DNA from: Gemmatimonadota bacterium
GTDB lineage: Bacteria > Gemmatimonadota > Gemmatimonadetes > Gemmatimonadales > Gemmatimonadaceae
Assembly (NCBI GenBank): GCA_016871895.1
Contig: VHBO01000004.1
Location: 1-64,000, forward strand
Length of the DNA stretch: 64,000 nucleotides
Direction: 5' to 3'
The notes below the pieces were generated by a model, which had not been told where the DNA came from, did not search any database, and saw nothing but the letters and a program-made list of their open reading frames with translations. How positions within the stretch are numbered: the first letter of the stretch is position 1; each line of letters begins with the position of its first letter. Positions 13,723-22,228 of the stretch are shown here, in pieces. A program made the translations under genes and the position numbers.

Positions 13723-14268
13723 TCAGGACGTCGGCGCAGGCTCCCCAGCCGTGGCGCGCTTGGCGGCCCGTTTCGCTGCCTCCGCCGCCACCCGCGCCTC
13801 GTACGCGGCCCGCGATTCCATGATCGACCCCCGGCAGGTCGCCGCGCCGCAGGCGCACCGATAGCGGGCCTCGTCCTCCGCCGCCTCGTCCCCGCTCCGC
13901 TGGTACTCGTAGTCGTAGAAGAGTTCCTCGCCGACCGCGATGTCGCGGACCGCGTCGATGAACACACGGCTCCGATCGATCACCGCCTCGCAGTTCGGGG
14001 CGCAGGAATGATTGATGAACCGCGCGTCATTCCCGCCGTGCGCCGCGTCGATCACCGTGCGGTTCGAGACGGCGAAGAGGAACGTGTGATGCTCCGACAT
14101 CGCGGCGTCATCGTACCGCGCGTCGGCCACGGCGTGCGAGATGCGCTCGCCGACGTACTCGATGATGCGCTCGCCGCGCGCGATGGCACGGGTCGCGAAG
14201 GCGCCGCGACCGGCGATGGGGGAGAAGCGGATCTCGAAGGGCGGGGTGCGAGGGGCGCGCGTCGGCAT
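13723..14268 (-). CDS. SET-domain protein lysine methyltransferase
   Basis: The 181-residue protein is essentially a SET domain. It has GRGAFATRAIARGERIIEYVG, the SAM-pocket motif RFINHSC (NHSC at 86-89), GEELFYDYEY with the catalytic Tyr, and a post-SET zinc motif using Cys138, Cys140 and Cys145. These resemble eukaryotic histone methyltransferases; the bacterial substrate is unknown. The tail is Lys/Arg/Ala-rich. The gene has a TAGCTT -10 box six bases before the ATG. Confidence 0.9.
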   Translation of the reverse strand: MPTRAPRTPPFEIRFSPIAGRGAFATRAIARGERIIEYVGERISHAVADARYDDAAMSEHHTFLFAVSNRTVIDAAHGGNDARFINHSCAPNCEAVIDRSRVFIDAVRDIAVGEELFYDYEYQRSGDEAAEDEARYRCACGAATCRGSIMESRAAYEARVAAEAAKRAAKRATAGEPAPTS

Positions 14269-14297: not shown

Positions 14298-17200
14298 TCA
14301 CCGGCGGAGCGGGACCCCGATTTCGAGCCCCGCGTACCAGGTCCGCGGCGGTGCCGGCTCGAACACCCGACCGAAGGCGCCGTTCACCGTCACCGCACCC
14401 ACGTACCGCTGGTCCAGCGCGTTCTGCACGGCGAGGAACGGCTCCACCGGATGCGCGAAGAGCACACCGCTCCAGGAGGCGCGCACGTTCAGCTGGCCGC
14501 GTCCCCACCCCGGCACGCGGATCGCGTTGCGATCGTCGGCCCAGAGCGCCGACTGCAGGGTCTGGTCGACGTCGAGGGCGCCCGCGCCCCGCGTAAGGCG
14601 TGCGCCGAGCCGGACGGTCGTGCGCGGCACGCCGGCCAGGCGATTGCCGTCGAGGGTGTCACGGGCGGGGGCCGGCTGCGACACCGACGGGACGGCATAC
14701 GACGCGAACCGATACTCGGCTCGCGTCCACGCGCCTCGGAGCTCGACCCCCGGCCGCGGGACGACGACGAGCCCCGCCTCGACGCCGCGGCTCCGCGTCC
14801 CGCCCGCATTCGCGAAGAAGGCGCGCCCGCCGCTCTCGAGGAACTGCACGATCGCCTCGCGCGCGGTCGCGTCGAACCAGGCGAGGTCGTACTGCACGAA
14901 CGCCCCGCGGGCGCGTCGCCCCGCCAGACGGCCACGCACGCCAAGCTCGAGCGTCGCGACGCGCTGCGGATCGAGCGACGGGTTGAAGCCACCGGCCCCA
15001 TCGACGCGGGCGTTCAATTCGGTCGTCGTCGGCGTCTCGAAGGCAGTCGAGAGATTCACGTACGGTGCCGCCGCGGGGCGCGCCCGCCAGACGGCGCCGA
15101 GGTGCCCGCTGGTCGCCGCCATCACGCGCGATCCCGAGTCGTCCTCGCCGTCGCCGAGGAAGCGGTCATCCACGGCGAAGCCGATCCGGTCGTGCCGCAC
15201 CCCGGCGCTCAGCGTCACCTTCTCCGCCGGCGAGAGCTCCAGATGGACGAAGGGCCCCACGCTCGTCACCGTCTCCCGCTGATCGAGGAGGAGGGTGTCG
15301 GTCGGGAGGTCGCGACGACCGGCGGTGCTGCGCCAGTTCCGTCGCGCATCACGTCCACGCTGCAGGTCGAGCCCTGCCGCGAGGCGCGGCGCCCCCGGCC
15401 CATCGAACCGGCGAACGCCGTCGAGGCGCGCGCCGATCACCCGGCGGTCGATCGTGGAGTAGGTCCCGTTGGTCGCCCCCGCCGGCGCCGGCGGTGCGGT
15501 GGCGAGGGGATTGTCCACCGAGCGTGCCTGGCGATACACGCTGACGCTCCACTCGCCGAGCGCCGTCTCGCCGCGCACCCGCGCGGAGACGTGACGCTGG
15601 GCGACGGCGCGCCGCGCGCCGCGCCGCAGATTCGTCGCCGCGGCGCTGTCGGGGTTCGCCGCCCACTCGGCCGCCGTGAGGGCGCCGGGATTGAAGGCCT
15701 CCGGCGTCTCGCTCGTGCCACCGCGGAGCTCCAGCGAACGGCCTTTGCCGAGCGCGTGATCGAACGCGAGGGCGAGTTGACGCGCGTCGGAGGCACTGTG
15801 CTGACGGAACCCGTCAGTCACGGTGCGGGAGGCGGAGAGGAGCCCGACCGAGCGCCCGGCGCGCGCGGACAACCGGAGCTGGTGCTTTGCGAGCCCGTAC
15901 GAACCCGCCAGCGTCCGCAGGCGGAGGTTCAGCGGATCGGGCGCGTCGAGGTCGGTCGTGAAGGCGAGGACGCCCCCCGAGCCGTTGCCGTAGACTGACG
16001 ACGCCGATCCGCGCAGGACCTCGACCCGACCGATGGTGGCGAGGTCGACGTTGGTGAGTTGGCTCTGCCCGTCCGGGAGCGACTGCGGGATGCCGTCGAG
16101 GAGCACCTTCACCCCGCGGAGCCCGAAGTTCGCACGGCTCCCCGCCCCGCGGATCGAGATCCGCTGATCGACCGCCGCGTTGTAACGGTTGGAGACGACG
16201 ACCCCCGGGATGTTCGCGAGCGCCTCGTCGATGCCGATGGTCGGCTGCGCCCGACGGAGGTCACGCGGCCCCTGCGTGCCGACCGCCCACGGGAGTCGGT
16301 CGAGGGTCGTGCCGCTGCGGGTGACCTCGACGCGGACGGGCGCGACGGTGCGCACGCGCAGGGAGTCGGGGCGTAGCGTGTCGACGCTCGCCCGCTGCGC
16401 GAGAAGTGGAGTGGTCAGCGCGACGGCGCCGAGCCCGACGAGCCGCCGCGCCCATCCAATCCACCGCGCGCGTCGCCGCTGCGCGCGCGCCTCGCGCTGC
16501 GCGGTGCGGACGACGGCGCGCCACGCCGCGCGCATCGCCTCGGCATCGGGGAAGCGCTCGGCGCGGTCAGCGGCGAGCGCACGGCGGAGCCAGCCCCGGA
16601 GCGGCTCCTCGAATCGCTCGAGGTCGATGCGGCCGCCGAGTTGGGCCGCGAGGATCGCGGGCCCATCGCTCCCGGCGAAAGGCGGCTGGCCGGTGAGTGC
16701 GAAGATCACGATTCCCGCGATCGCGAAGAGATCGGTCCCGACCCCCTGCTCCTCGCCGAGGAGCTGCTCCGGCGCGGCGAAGGCGGGCGTCCCCGATGCC
16801 CCGGCCACTGCCGTCCCCATCGCGTTCGCGATGCCGAAGTCGGCGATCCGCCACCGACGGTACCGGTCGATGAGGATGTTCTCGGGCTTCAGGTCGCGAT
16901 GGATGATGCCATTCGCGTGTGCGACGGCGAGGCCATCGAGGACCGCATCGACCTGTGCACCGATCTCCTCGAGCGGGCGCGGCCCCTGTCGCGCGACGAG
17001 ATCGGCGACGGAGCCCTCCTCCTCCAGCTCCATGATGTACCAGTTCACGTCCCCCTTCGCGTCCCACGCGAAGATCGGGACGATCGCGGGATGTTGCAGC
17101 TGCGCGGCAAGCTGCGCCTCGCGGCGGAAGCGGCTCACCGCAGCGGCGTTCCGCGCGATCGTGGGGTGGAGCATCTTGAGCGCGACCTCGCGCTCGAGCG

Positions 17201-18176
17201 AGAGGTCGCGCACGCGCCAGACGGAGCCGTAGGTGCCGGCGCCGAGCGGCGCGAGCACCTCGTAGTCATCGCCCGTCGCGAAGCGGAGCCGATCTTCCTC
17301 CGTCACCACGGCCTGCGCACCGGAGACCCGTTCCGCCGCTGGGACGGCGAGGTTGCTCCCCGCAGAGATTCGCTCAATCTGCCGGAGCATCCCGGCCACG
17401 CTTGAGAAGCGGTCGCCGGGGTCGGCAGCGAGCATCCGGTCGACGAGGGCTGCGACCGTCGCCGGGCAGTCCGGCCGCACGATACGGATCGGCGGGATGT
17501 CAGCGCCCGACGGGAGCTCCCCCGTCAGGATCGCGAACGCGAGCGCGCCGAGCTGCCACTGGTCCGAGGCCGCGGAGGGGCGCCAGTCGGCTCCCCACTC
17601 AGGGGCCCACGGTGTCCATCGGGCGTCGGGCGTGACGCCGGCAGGGATCTCGTCGCGCGGGACGACCCACTGCCATCCCAGGGTCCAGATGCGTCCGGTC
17701 GGCGTCACGTACGCCGTGTCGGGACCGAGCGCGCCGTGCGTGTCGGCGACGTCGTGCAGGTAGGCGAGCGTGGAGCCGATCGCGCGCAGGATCCGCAACG
17801 CGAAGGGGACCGTGTCGGCGCCGATGCGGCGGACCCGGTCACCGACGGTCTCGCCAGTGATCCATCGCCGCAGATAGCCCGGTCCGCGCCGCGACCCCGC
17901 CTGCTGCTGCCAGAAGTGGTAGGTGGTCGGGACGTTCGGATGGCTGCGGTGGGCGAGATGCCGCGCCTCGCGGAAGAGCCAGGCGTGGTGGACGGGGTCC
18001 GGCGCGGTGACCAGCGCGAGCGAGCGGCCCAGCGCGTCGACCACCTCTTGGGCGTGCCGATGCGGCGTGAAGACGCCGGAGCCGCCCCACCGCCAATCCG
18101 GGGGGAGGACCCACCCCTCGAGGTGGGAGGGGAGGCCGCTGCTGGGCCGATTGTGTCCGATGGAAACGTCAGGCAT
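14298..18176 (-). CDS. Ser/Thr protein kinase fused in frame to a TonB-dependent receptor
   Basis: One uninterrupted 1292-residue frame holds two unrelated proteins. Residues about 45-270 are a degenerate kinase fold (HDVADTHGALGPDT where HRDLKPEN belongs), a likely pseudokinase. Residues about 300-550 are an intact Hanks-type kinase: GAGTYG (312-317), Lys334, HRDLKPEN (426-433), DFG (446-448), APE (468-470). Residues about 558-594 are basic, then hydrophobic, ending PLLAQ, exactly like an outer-membrane receptor signal peptide. From about 630 comes a TonB plug (ISIRGAGSRANFGLRG, VEVLRGSASSVYGNGSGG) and a beta-barrel to the end. The only in-frame internal ATG before the signal peptide is Met548, inside the kinase tail. 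A true fusion, internal initiation, or loss of a boundary by mutation or assembly error are all possible. The histidine kinase gene lies 18 bases upstream. Confidence 0.85.
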   Translation of the reverse strand: MPDVSIGHNRPSSGLPSHLEGWVLPPDWRWGGSGVFTPHRHAQEVVDALGRSLALVTAPDPVHHAWLFREARHLAHRSHPNVPTTYHFWQQQAGSRRGPGYLRRWITGETVGDRVRRIGADTVPFALRILRAIGSTLAYLHDVADTHGALGPDTAYVTPTGRIWTLGWQWVVPRDEIPAGVTPDARWTPWAPEWGADWRPSAASDQWQLGALAFAILTGELPSGADIPPIRIVRPDCPATVAALVDRMLAADPGDRFSSVAGMLRQIERISAGSNLAVPAAERVSGAQAVVTEEDRLRFATGDDYEVLAPLGAGTYGSVWRVRDLSLEREVALKMLHPTIARNAAAVSRFRREAQLAAQLQHPAIVPIFAWDAKGDVNWYIMELEEEGSVADLVARQGPRPLEEIGAQVDAVLDGLAVAHANGIIHRDLKPENILIDRYRRWRIADFGIANAMGTAVAGASGTPAFAAPEQLLGEEQGVGTDLFAIAGIVIFALTGQPPFAGSDGPAILAAQLGGRIDLERFEEPLRGWLRRALAADRAERFPDAEAMRAAWRAVVRTAQREARAQRRRARWIGWARRLVGLGAVALTTPLLAQRASVDTLRPDSLRVRTVAPVRVEVTRSGTTLDRLPWAVGTQGPRDLRRAQPTIGIDEALANIPGVVVSNRYNAAVDQRISIRGAGSRANFGLRGVKVLLDGIPQSLPDGQSQLTNVDLATIGRVEVLRGSASSVYGNGSGGVLAFTTDLDAPDPLNLRLRTLAGSYGLAKHQLRLSARAGRSVGLLSASRTVTDGFRQHSASDARQLALAFDHALGKGRSLELRGGTSETPEAFNPGALTAAEWAANPDSAAATNLRRGARRAVAQRHVSARVRGETALGEWSVSVYRQARSVDNPLATAPPAPAGATNGTYSTIDRRVIGARLDGVRRFDGPGAPRLAAGLDLQRGRDARRNWRSTAGRRDLPTDTLLLDQRETVTSVGPFVHLELSPAEKVTLSAGVRHDRIGFAVDDRFLGDGEDDSGSRVMAATSGHLGAVWRARPAAAPYVNLSTAFETPTTTELNARVDGAGGFNPSLDPQRVATLELGVRGRLAGRRARGAFVQYDLAWFDATAREAIVQFLESGGRAFFANAGGTRSRGVEAGLVVVPRPGVELRGAWTRAEYRFASYAVPSVSQPAPARDTLDGNRLAGVPRTTVRLGARLTRGAGALDVDQTLQSALWADDRNAIRVPGWGRGQLNVRASWSGVLFAHPVEPFLAVQNALDQRYVGAVTVNGAFGRVFEPAPPRTWYAGLEIGVPLRR

Positions 18177-18194: not shown

Positions 18195-21100
18195 TCACGC
18201 GGCGGGCGGCGGCGGACCGGGGAGGTTGATCGTGAACGTCGCCCCCGCGCCCGGCGTGCTCTCTACGGCGATCGTCCCGCCCCATCCCTCGACGAGCCGC
18301 CGTGCCATCGCCAGTCCGAGGCCGCTCCCGCTCGAGCGCGTCGAGAAGTGTGGGTCGAAGATCCGCGGCAGCAGCTCCGGGGCGATCCCCGAGCCGTCGT
18401 CCTCCACGCGGAGCATCGCGCCGCCCGCCGCGTTCGGCATCACGGTGACCGTCACGCGTCGTGCGCCCGCGAGCCGCGCGTTCTCAAGGAGGTTGAGGAG
18501 CACCTCGCGCAATTCACGGTCCTGCGCGCTGACGAGCAGCGGCCCCTCCGGCCCCTCGGCGCGCCAGTCGATCCCCTCCGCACCGATCCGTTCGAGCTCG
18601 ACCACATCGTGCACCGCACGGGCCGCGTCGACGGGCACCGGCGACGGCGCGCCCGTCGTCACCACGCCGTAGCGGCTGAAGGTCCACGCGAGGTCATCGA
18701 GCCGGTCGATCTCCGCCAGGATGCGCGCGGTGTTCTCCTCGAGGAGGCGCCCGAAATCGCCACGGCCGTCACGATGCGCGCGCTGCAGGTGCTGCATGCC
18801 CAGCCGCATCGGCGTCAGCGGGTTCTTGATCTCGTGCGCCACCTGCCGCGCCATCTCGCCCCACGCGAGCACGCGCTCGGCGCGCACGACCTCGGTCACA
18901 TCGTCGATGGTGAGCACGAGCCGACGCCCCGTCGCGCCGAAACGGATCGCACGCAGCTGCAACCGTCGCCCCTCCCGCTCCACCTCGGTCGCGCGTTCCT
19001 CCGACGCCTCTAGCCGGATCGCATCGACCCACGCGGCGAGCGCGTCACCGAGCGCCGCCGCCACGGGCGTCCCTGGCGGGATCGACGCGCCGAGAATCGC
19101 CTCGGCCCGCGGATTGGCGAGGGTGACGCGCCCCTCGCCGTCGAGCGCGAGCACCCCGCTCGCGACATTGCGCAGCGTCGCTTCGAGTCGCCGCTGGGCG
19201 GTCTCGAGTTCGGCGCGGCTCTCCGCGAGGTCGACGGTCATCCGCCCGAAGGCCCGGAAGACGGGGACGAACTCGATCGGGGGCGGCCCTGACGGCTCCG
19301 GCGCCGGCACCCCGCGCGCCACGGCGAGGACCCGCGCCCGGAGCGCGCGAATCGGCTCGGAGAGCTGTCGCGCCCCGGCGCCGCTCGCCCAGATCGCGAC
19401 GAACGCCCCCAGCGTCATCGCAAAGAGGAGGAGCACCACGAGGTCATTCCGCCGCCGATCGAGGAGGCGGTCATCGAGCCGGGCGGGAGCTCCGAGCACG
19501 AAGGTGACCCCTGCGGCATCGGCGGCGCTGCGGAAACCGAGGCGCAATCGCGTGCGACCGAGCGGCGCGACCTCCCCCTGCACCGGGTCGTCCCCCTCGG
19601 CGAGCGCGAGGGCGATGGCGGGGGGGAGGAGGCGTCCGACCGGGGAGAGCGCGTCGAGGACGGGGTCGCTCGTCGCGGCGAGGAGCCCGTCGGCGTAGAG
19701 GAAGAGCGGGGTGTCGAAGCGCAGGCTCGCGGCGCGAAGCTCCGACGCCGTGGTCGAGACCGCGACGCCCCGCAGCGTCTCCCGCACCAGCAGGTCCCGC
19801 GCCTGCGCGTCCTCGAGCTGAAGGCGTTGCACCGACCAGCCGGCGAAGAGCGCCGCCGGCACCGTGAAGGCGGTGAGCAGGGCGATCGAGAGCCGGACGC
19901 GGAAGCTGCGCAGCAGGTCGCGTCGCCGACGACGCCACCAGCGCCGCAGGACGCCATCGGCCACCACGATCAGGAGCCAGAGCGCCCCGAGCAGGACGAG
20001 GTCGAACGCCACGAGGAGGGCGCCACGCATCGTCAGGGCCATCGGACTGCGGAGGTCGATCTCCGCGTGGAGCCGTCGCAGCCCCGTCGGAGAGGCCGTC
20101 ACCCCATCGCCGTGCAGCGCATCACCGCGCCGCACCCAGGTCAGCGCGCCCGAAGCGGGTCCGCCGACCGGTGCCCCGACCGCCTCGCCGGCGAGCCGAA
20201 GCGCGTACGGGGGTTCGGGCGACGGCGGCGGTGCGAATCCCAGCAACGCGCCGAACGCATCCGGGGTCACGAGGGCTGAGCGCGGGGCGACGACGATCGT
20301 CGTCGCCGTCCCATCGTCGTGCGGGGCGGCGAGCACGAGATGCACCCCGGGATCGCCGGGGACGGCCTGCAGGACGGCGACGCCGGTGGACTGCACCTCG
20401 CGGGAGAAGCGCTCGATTCCCCGCGTGATGCCCGGCCCCCGTCGGACGCGCACTTCATCGATGCGGGACCCATCGGGGGCCCAGGTGGCGATCTCGACCG
20501 GATAGTCCGTGGCGGCCAACTCGGTCGCGCGGAAGGCGTCGAGCATCTGCACGCGGGTGCGTGCCGCGGCGGCGCGATCGAGCGAGGCGGCCGCGCGCTG
20601 CAGGAGCCCCGCCGCCATCGGGTCCGCCGTCTCGAGCCCACGGACATCCGCCTCGGCGAGAGCCACGCGGTCCCGCGTCGTCGAGAGCCAGACGAGCGTG
20701 GTGGCACCGCACGCCGCGACGAAGGCCACCGGCACCACCACGGCGCGGCCGCGTCGGGAGAGCCCGAGCGCGAGGATCGCCGCGACCCAGCACGCCGGGT
20801 GCCACGCGGGCAGGCGGCCCGGCGGCTCGAGCAACAGCACCGCGCTTAGGGCGGCGAGCACCGCGAGCAGCGGAGCGACCCAGACGGGGAGTCCACGCGC
20901 TCCGCCCATCGCGAGCCGCCCGGCGATGACACCGGGCAGCAGCACGACCGTCGCGGCGAGGAAGAACGCCACCTGCCAGGCGATCCAGAGGGTAACCGAG
21001 GCGCCGGACATCGGCAGTTGGATCCCGCCGGCGAGGGCGCGGAGCGCGAAGGGGCCGATCCCCGCCACGACGGCGAGCGCACCGAACGCGATGGGCCGGG

Positions 21101-22178
21101 AGGGGCGCCAGCGGGCGGCGCGGACGGCAGTCAGCATCGCGAGCAGGAGGAGCGCGCTCGAGAGGGCGACACTCGCGGCGTTGGCGGTGAAGGGACCGCC
21201 GAGGGCGACGAAGAACACCGAGGGATCGAAGACGACCGAGCGGTTAGAGAAGCCCGCGGATGGGACCGCCGCGACGACGGCGACCGCGACGCCCCAGGCA
21301 ACGACGCGTTCCCAGAGCGGTCCGCCGCGCCGCCAGGCGGTGGCGACGAGTCCGAGCACGACCAGCCCGAGCAGTGCGACGCCCCACGGGAGCGCCCGCT
21401 CCTCAGCAGCCAGACGTCGGGCATCGGCGTCGAGGGGGAGCGGCCGCGCCGCAGCGACCGGGCCGTCACCGAGGTCGAGCACCACCGCGTCGGGCACACC
21501 GACGGCATCGCCGGGGTCGCCATACGCGAAGCCCGACAGGCCGTGCTGTGCCGCGAGCGCCGCATCGAGGGGCGAGGCCATCGCGAGCGCGGGACGTACC
21601 GCGTGCAACAGGGTCGTCGCCACGGCGACCCGACGGCCCTCGCGGGCGGCCGCGTAGACGACCACGTGGTACGGCGTGATGAGCAGGCCCCGTGGGGCGG
21701 CGAGGGAGTCGAGCGAGACCACGAGCCGACCCGACCACGCGAAGGGCCGACCGTCCTCGGCGACGACGATCGCCCGGTCCGCGCCGGTGGGGCGGGCGCG
21801 GTCGAGCGCGGCGAAGGCGGCGCGTCGGTCGGGCGGGACGGCGAGGGCCGACGCCGCCAGCGCCTCGAGGCGCGGCCCCTCCGTGGCGACGGCCGCGCGG
21901 AGCGCGACCGCCGCCTCGCGCTGTTGCCGCGCCGTGGCCTCCGGTGCGGCGATGCGCGCCAGCGCCCGCTGATGGAGCGCGGCGACGACGATGAAACCGA
22001 CCGCCGCGAGTCGCACCACCCCGCGCCGGCGCCGAGCATCGGGGGCCCCAGCCCCCCAGAGCAGCGGGACCGCCACGACGGCGAGGGCCGCGAGCGCACC
22101 GACCGCCGGCGCGCGCATCCAGAGCGCCGCGGCGACCACGAACGCGGTCGCGGAGAGAGTCCACAGACGGGAACGCAC
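18195..22178 (-). CDS. NtrY-like membrane sensor histidine kinase with very large N-terminal sensor region
   Basis: The 1327-residue protein has roughly a dozen hydrophobic segments in its first 900 residues, interrupted by at least two long extracytoplasmic stretches. A HAMP-like linker (LSEPIRALRARVLAVARG) follows, then a PAS domain (NVASGVLALDGEGRVTLANP), HisKA with phospho-acceptor His about 1115 in QVAHEIKNPLTPMRLGMQHL, and a HATPase domain (LLNLLENARLAG, DDGSGIAP, SGSGLGLAM). The HEIKNPLTP box and PAS arrangement are NtrY-like. The GTG at 22178 is chosen over a GTG 13 codons upstream because a TATTAT -10 box sits six bases before it. No response regulator is adjacent; the NtrC-type regulator ending at 8336 is a candidate. 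Confidence 0.88.
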   Translation of the reverse strand: MRSRLWTLSATAFVVAAALWMRAPAVGALAALAVVAVPLLWGAGAPDARRRRGVVRLAAVGFIVVAALHQRALARIAAPEATARQQREAAVALRAAVATEGPRLEALAASALAVPPDRRAAFAALDRARPTGADRAIVVAEDGRPFAWSGRLVVSLDSLAAPRGLLITPYHVVVYAAAREGRRVAVATTLLHAVRPALAMASPLDAALAAQHGLSGFAYGDPGDAVGVPDAVVLDLGDGPVAAARPLPLDADARRLAAEERALPWGVALLGLVVLGLVATAWRRGGPLWERVVAWGVAVAVVAAVPSAGFSNRSVVFDPSVFFVALGGPFTANAASVALSSALLLLAMLTAVRAARWRPSRPIAFGALAVVAGIGPFALRALAGGIQLPMSGASVTLWIAWQVAFFLAATVVLLPGVIAGRLAMGGARGLPVWVAPLLAVLAALSAVLLLEPPGRLPAWHPACWVAAILALGLSRRGRAVVVPVAFVAACGATTLVWLSTTRDRVALAEADVRGLETADPMAAGLLQRAAASLDRAAAARTRVQMLDAFRATELAATDYPVEIATWAPDGSRIDEVRVRRGPGITRGIERFSREVQSTGVAVLQAVPGDPGVHLVLAAPHDDGTATTIVVAPRSALVTPDAFGALLGFAPPPSPEPPYALRLAGEAVGAPVGGPASGALTWVRRGDALHGDGVTASPTGLRRLHAEIDLRSPMALTMRGALLVAFDLVLLGALWLLIVVADGVLRRWWRRRRRDLLRSFRVRLSIALLTAFTVPAALFAGWSVQRLQLEDAQARDLLVRETLRGVAVSTTASELRAASLRFDTPLFLYADGLLAATSDPVLDALSPVGRLLPPAIALALAEGDDPVQGEVAPLGRTRLRLGFRSAADAAGVTFVLGAPARLDDRLLDRRRNDLVVLLLFAMTLGAFVAIWASGAGARQLSEPIRALRARVLAVARGVPAPEPSGPPPIEFVPVFRAFGRMTVDLAESRAELETAQRRLEATLRNVASGVLALDGEGRVTLANPRAEAILGASIPPGTPVAAALGDALAAWVDAIRLEASEERATEVEREGRRLQLRAIRFGATGRRLVLTIDDVTEVVRAERVLAWGEMARQVAHEIKNPLTPMRLGMQHLQRAHRDGRGDFGRLLEENTARILAEIDRLDDLAWTFSRYGVVTTGAPSPVPVDAARAVHDVVELERIGAEGIDWRAEGPEGPLLVSAQDRELREVLLNLLENARLAGARRVTVTVMPNAAGGAMLRVEDDGSGIAPELLPRIFDPHFSTRSSGSGLGLAMARRLVEGWGGTIAVESTPGAGATFTINLPGPPPPAA

Positions 22179-22184
22179 GAGCGG

Positions 22185-22190
22185 ATAATA
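22185..22190 (-). promoter_or_regulatory. -10 box TATTAT, leaderless GTG start of the histidine kinase
   Basis: Six bases before the GTG; a -35-like CTGACG lies 17 bases upstream of it. The upstream alternative GTG would put this promoter inside the coding region. Confidence 0.65.
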
Positions 22191-22228
22191 CCTGGCCGCC
22201 GGGGGACCGTCAGCCACGCCCCGCCCAC

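Follow-up and report, generated by a model that had tools for sequence, protein, structure and literature searches.

On the minus strand of the window, the 64,000-nucleotide stretch of DNA analysed here, positions 14298–18176 form a single reading frame that runs from an ATG to its stop through 1292 codons, none of them interrupted. It encodes a kinase module, an internal signal peptide and a PqqU-like TonB-dependent receptor in one chain of 1292 residues. The preliminary description of the locus had proposed such a frame, with no stop codon between kinase and receptor, and this is confirmed by the open codons, by Pfam matches to Pkinase, Plug and barrel and by the occurrence of the arrangement in five genomes. 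The openness of the frame is by itself weak evidence, because out-of-frame stops occur only about once per 60–110 codons in this DNA (71.7% GC). The coding signature is unbroken across the junction, with GC3 of 0.86–0.93 along the whole frame. A chance open frame in GC-rich DNA is ruled out by the lack of any stop after the kinase and by the recurrence of the fusion.

The complete kinase domain (residues 304–550, 16527–17267) has PknB proteins as its closest solved relatives and matches Pfam PF00069 Pkinase over residues 305–512 (1.2e-42). GAGTYG, Lys334, HRDLKPEN, DFG and an APE-like motif are all present; most of these vary little or not at all across an alignment of 37 sequences, and the domain carries the motif set of a Hanks-type, PknB-like Ser/Thr kinase. 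Against the equivalog model for the PASTA kinase PknB/Stk1 (NF033483) it scores 201.9 with a cut-off of 450, and the Pfam scan found zero PASTA domains. Residues 22–275 (17352–18113) form a degenerate (pseudo)kinase domain with weak Pkinase matches that stay below threshold in the window protein and its relatives (best 4.8e-5, in a relative); in the window, HGAL replaces HRDL and LGW replaces DFG. An AlphaFold model of residues 1–640, weak overall (pLDDT 62.6, 20 sequences) and supporting only the kinase folds and a long tail helix, has C-lobe-like helices at pLDDT of about 80–93 in this region. These matches and motifs bear out the earlier reading of a pseudokinase-like domain followed by a complete Hanks kinase. 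The tandem layout is conserved across all relatives, with HGA at the place of HRD and LGW at that of DFG.

The kinase continues into an Arg-rich helical tail, AWRAVVRTAQREARAQRRRARWIGWARRLV (residues 551–580, 16437–16526), delimited by the model and by comparison with the tails of stand-alone kinases. There follow a hydrophobic core with a proposed signal peptidase I site, LVGLGAVALTTPLLA and then Gln (residues 579–593, 16398–16442), a linker from the cut site to the plug (residues 594–641, 16254–16397) and the plug and β-barrel of the PqqU/YncD family (residues 642–1292, 14301–16253), all on the minus strand. The receptor half is a TonB-dependent receptor, both its plug (residues 642–735, 2.4e-18, score 67.0 versus a gathering score of 23.9) and its barrel (residues 827–1235, 6.7e-33, 115.6 versus 27) exceeding the gathering scores.

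By sequence, the closest solved relatives of the receptor are YncD/PqqU (6v81 and 9c4o, about 1.1e-71 to 2.9e-71), with homology over the full length of plug and barrel; its score against the PqqU NCBIfam equivalog, 294.9, is below the cut-off of 1200. PqqU is reported to be widespread in Gemmatimonadetes, and the residues named as PQQ contacts in the Escherichia coli protein are Y99, K274, R304, R365 and R536 (PMC12124388). Their equivalents in the window are F684, R856, R885, R942 and R1118, respectively. Among 47 homologues, Phe in the Y99 column and the Arg of R304 are invariant; the R365 column is variable and its alignment uncertain. From this comparison, PQQ is the likely substrate of the window receptor. 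It is not certain to be that of the whole family, because the forms from a second genus, g20, differ at the R365 and R536 columns.

Neighbouring genes and recurrence of the fusion

The fused gene lies between two genes of the same strand that are syntenic in relatives. Upstream, ending 18 bases before the kinase start, is a gene for an NtrY-like histidine kinase (18195–22217); downstream of the receptor is one for a SET-domain protein (13723–14268; PF00856, 1.8e-25), syntenic in two genera. The histidine kinase, of 1340 residues, has a very long N-terminal half, and it precedes the Ser/Thr kinase in relatives too. The order histidine kinase, Ser/Thr kinase, receptor and SET-domain protein is preserved in the window's genus and in g20, often with extra genes between kinase and receptor in relatives.

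In unfused members of the window's genus, the kinase stops about 35–40 residues beyond an AWR motif, and a separate start codon serves the receptor. The boundary between the two genes reads TGATG in G012, G013 and G003 and GTGA in G005, and such overlap of stop and start is a mark of translational coupling; kinase and receptor genes also overlap in G156, from a third genus. Several relatives of the same genus have 2.5–3.5 kb between kinase and receptor. G010 had seemed fused from the listing of open frames, which is ruled out by a TAG about 30 bases ahead of its receptor start. Because the two genes adjoin in most of the genus, their association predates the fusion.

The preliminary description had called for a search of related genomes for kinase–receptor fusions, and four were found. 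The metagenome-assembled genomes (MAGs) G035, G078, G082 and G086 of g20, another genus of the Gemmatimonadaceae, each carry one kinase–receptor frame with no internal stop, in the same syntenic place (records CAIVZZ010000010, PMYN01000101, JADGQS010000015 and JANYIJ010000054). Their proteins are 57–59% identical to that of the window, and the MAGs bear four different sample names (Umea3, fen_1231, Chersky and GL140). Separate kinase and receptor genes in all relatives, which the preliminary description had named as counter-evidence, are thus not what we observe. The gene is fused in 5 of 288 genomes of the order, no further fusion was found in a 298-genome sample of the phylum, and a literature search for fusions of kinases with TonB-dependent receptors found no paper.

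In the maximum-likelihood trees, one for the kinase and one for the receptor, the fused state has to arise twice, and the well-supported branches allow no smaller number: the window protein falls among members of its own genus, and one clade (100/99 and 100/100) holds all four g20 forms. The fusion therefore originated twice, each time inside its own genus. The spread of one fused gene between genera is ruled out, as both halves group in their own genera. Compared among the three main g20 lineages (G035, G086 and the G082/G078 pair), the large domains have pairwise dS of 0.65–1.16, which is near-saturated, and dN of about 0.02 in the kinase and 0.07–0.11 in plug and barrel; indels at the junction comprise whole codons only. 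High dS, low dN and junction indels in multiples of three indicate that the joint g20 frame has long been kept, with both halves under purifying selection. The sequence evidence, one uninterrupted frame in five genomes, is best explained by a true fusion, rare and twice evolved, of a PknB-type kinase gene with the adjoining PqqU-family receptor gene. For the four g20 copies we regard this as very highly probable.

The junction between kinase and receptor

In the window, the Arg-rich kinase tail leads straight into the hydrophobic core, and residues 545–587 are modelled as one helix that connects the final helix of the kinase with the beginning of the core (AlphaFold, with the model weak overall). 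In the g20 fusions, the kinase tails align without gaps to stand-alone tails as far as FFG/GFG, and the hydrophobic core and cut-site motif follow directly. The cores of the fused forms fall inside the range of stand-alone signal peptides; the Ala–Gln cut-site ending is retained in the fused and nearly all unfused forms, and the window's LLA–Q ending is also seen in the unfused relative G001. Judged from these alignments, the receptor start and the n-region of its signal peptide are lost, and the kinase tail now occupies the place of that n-region.

None of the five fused frames has a usual start codon just ahead of the signal peptide, and no promoter- or terminator-like site was found at the junction. 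Bradyrhizobium FbcH, a cytochrome b/c1 precursor, contains an internal signal peptide at which signal peptidase cleaves it. The boundary here has the features of such a polyprotein, namely one frame, no usual start nearby and a hydrophobic core with a cut-site motif, with cleavage predicted.

Sparse start codons were also seen at two further receptors. The unfused receptor of G015 (locus L048, near 5004), 2.5 kb from its kinase, has no ATG, GTG or TTG within about 40 codons of its signal peptide. A same-genus receptor at a contig end in G006 (locus L053, first 300 bases of the reversed locus) has no usual start just ahead of its signal peptide, the nearest candidates being an ATG within the core itself and a GTG far away; that contig is without the kinase side.

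For the window copy only, a one-base insertion, whether a recent mutation or an error of sequencing or assembly, could have joined two overlapping genes. At a three-G site, GATGGGCGCGGC (16445–16456, minus strand), one G fewer would yield a kinase ending ...GWRGGSSGSAPSR before its stop and a receptor beginning MARRLVGLG...; written around GATGGGCGCGG, GATGGGCGCG or GATGGGCG, this one change would give two plausible overlapping genes, the second starting MARRLVGLGAVALTTPLLAQ. Both products look normal, the kinase tail so produced resembles the ...GWRGGVSDSKRPNH with which the kinase of G010 ends, and stop and start still overlap in close relatives. The window fusion also rests on one Gemmatimonadaceae genome, presumably a MAG (129 contigs, 2.28 Mb), and the contig of the nearest relative, G008 (93% over residues 951–1292), begins inside the barrel, after the junction. 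However, comparison of the tails does not favour the minus-one reading overall: HMM scores are 35.7 for frame 0 versus 38.8 for that reading, and frame 0 does about equally well in most relatives. The overlap would be about 40 bases, compared with 1–4 in the coupled relatives of the genus, and the remaining genes of the window appear intact, which argues against a high indel rate. Since four fusions exist elsewhere, a true fusion in the window is plausible; we consider it probable, and a stray base rather improbable. The case of the window copy is to be graded apart from assembly error as a general explanation, which the four other MAGs rule out. Of the lost boundary proposed in the preliminary description, then, loss in the course of evolution stands, as close relatives keep stop and start, and assembly error as a general cause falls.

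Proposed fate of the joint chain

The best overall explanation of the fused gene, and to us a somewhat probable one, is a single chain cut at its internal signal peptide. The fusion would have arisen when the kinase lost its stop and the receptor lost both its start and the n-region of its signal peptide. Ribosomes would then produce one joint chain, whose kinase part would fold in the cytoplasm, and the Arg-rich tail with the receptor's hydrophobic core would enter SecYEG as a signal anchor, N-terminus inside. Signal peptidase I would cut after Ala593, and the freed receptor would proceed to BAM and then the outer membrane; the kinase would remain on the inner membrane, anchored by the leftover signal peptide, and output of kinase and receptor would be fixed at 1:1. 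A hydrophobic segment that first anchors the kinase and is then cut by signal peptidase had been suggested in the preliminary description, and the retained cut-site ending and a core within the normal range make it the best-supported account, cleavage being its predicted step. Counting against a signal peptidase I cut, the window site has Leu at −3, which is not an ideal residue.

Ribosomes might also initiate in the kinase tail and so yield the receptor as a protein of its own, whose signal peptide would be long, leaving the read-through chain as a by-product. The only in-frame starts near the window signal peptide are ATG548, 46 codons upstream of the cut, and ATT573, a rare but permitted start that would yield a 21-residue signal peptide; in g20, a GTG within ‘RE/DVLK’ is common to 4 of 4 fused members. 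Met548, however, is invariant among kinases without an attached receptor, and no Shine–Dalgarno-like site precedes ATG548 or ATT573. These two observations weaken the internal start at Met548 that had been put forward earlier, and Met548 is unlikely to be a dedicated receptor start. The g20 GTG is accounted for by the kinase, because unfused kinases commonly have V or A there. With no stop after the kinase, moreover, the joint chain must arise whenever translation begins at the first ATG, and we regard a dual start as unlikely. We give very little credence to an uncut chain in which the kinase, joined to the receptor by a tether reaching from the inner membrane to the outer, would sense whether the receptor is occupied. 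Its topology would match that of receptor kinases with this fold, such as PknB, but the roughly 48 residues from cut site to plug would hardly span the periplasm even if fully extended, the cut-site motif is retained, and stand-alone homologues with a similar linker act as free receptors.

If the joint chain is cut as proposed, the locus would encode a bacterial polyprotein that evolved at least twice, with one product for the cytoplasm and one for the outer membrane. Signal peptidase would separate the two at an internal signal peptide that owes its n-region to the kinase tail; a kinase that was once soluble would now be anchored by what remains of the receptor's signal peptide, and would be produced in a 1:1 ratio with a PqqU-like receptor. 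We hold the case for this full description to be evenly balanced. Sorting rules would seem to bar a cytoplasmic enzyme and an outer-membrane barrel from sharing one chain. That two fusions occurred separately near the same point, and that selection has kept one of them in four species, suggests that a signal peptide may act when almost 580 residues precede it, and that one chain serving two compartments may be tolerated, perhaps even exploited, by cells. The tie between a Ser/Thr kinase and a PqqU-like receptor makes it possible to test, in Gemmatimonadota, for a connection of kinase signalling with PQQ uptake. Automatic annotation may label such fused genes as either kinase or receptor.

Comparison with known systems

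Polyproteins split at an internal signal peptide are a known kind of arrangement, and what is unusual here is the pair of destinations. As in FbcH, two proteins would come from one chain divided at a signal peptide within it. The products of FbcH, however, are inner-membrane and periplasmic parts of one complex, whereas those of the fused gene would be a cytoplasmic kinase and an outer-membrane receptor, which are not known to form a complex. With PknB and other PASTA receptor kinases the window protein shares a cytoplasmic Hanks kinase, one hydrophobic segment and an exported C-terminal part, and the topology proposed for the fused chain, N-terminus inside, is that of PknB. Unlike the PASTA kinases, it lacks PASTA domains, it would export a β-barrel receptor, and a likely signal peptidase I site closes its hydrophobic segment. 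PqqU/YncD, a high-affinity PQQ importer, is alike in its full-length plug and barrel, with Arg at the equivalents of R304, R365 and R536, K274 replaced by Arg and Y99 by Phe; it differs in that the window receptor is carried on a kinase. The coupled pairs of G012, G013 and G005 have the same genes, order and neighbours, except that TGATG or GTGA lies between the two genes and the receptor has its own start.
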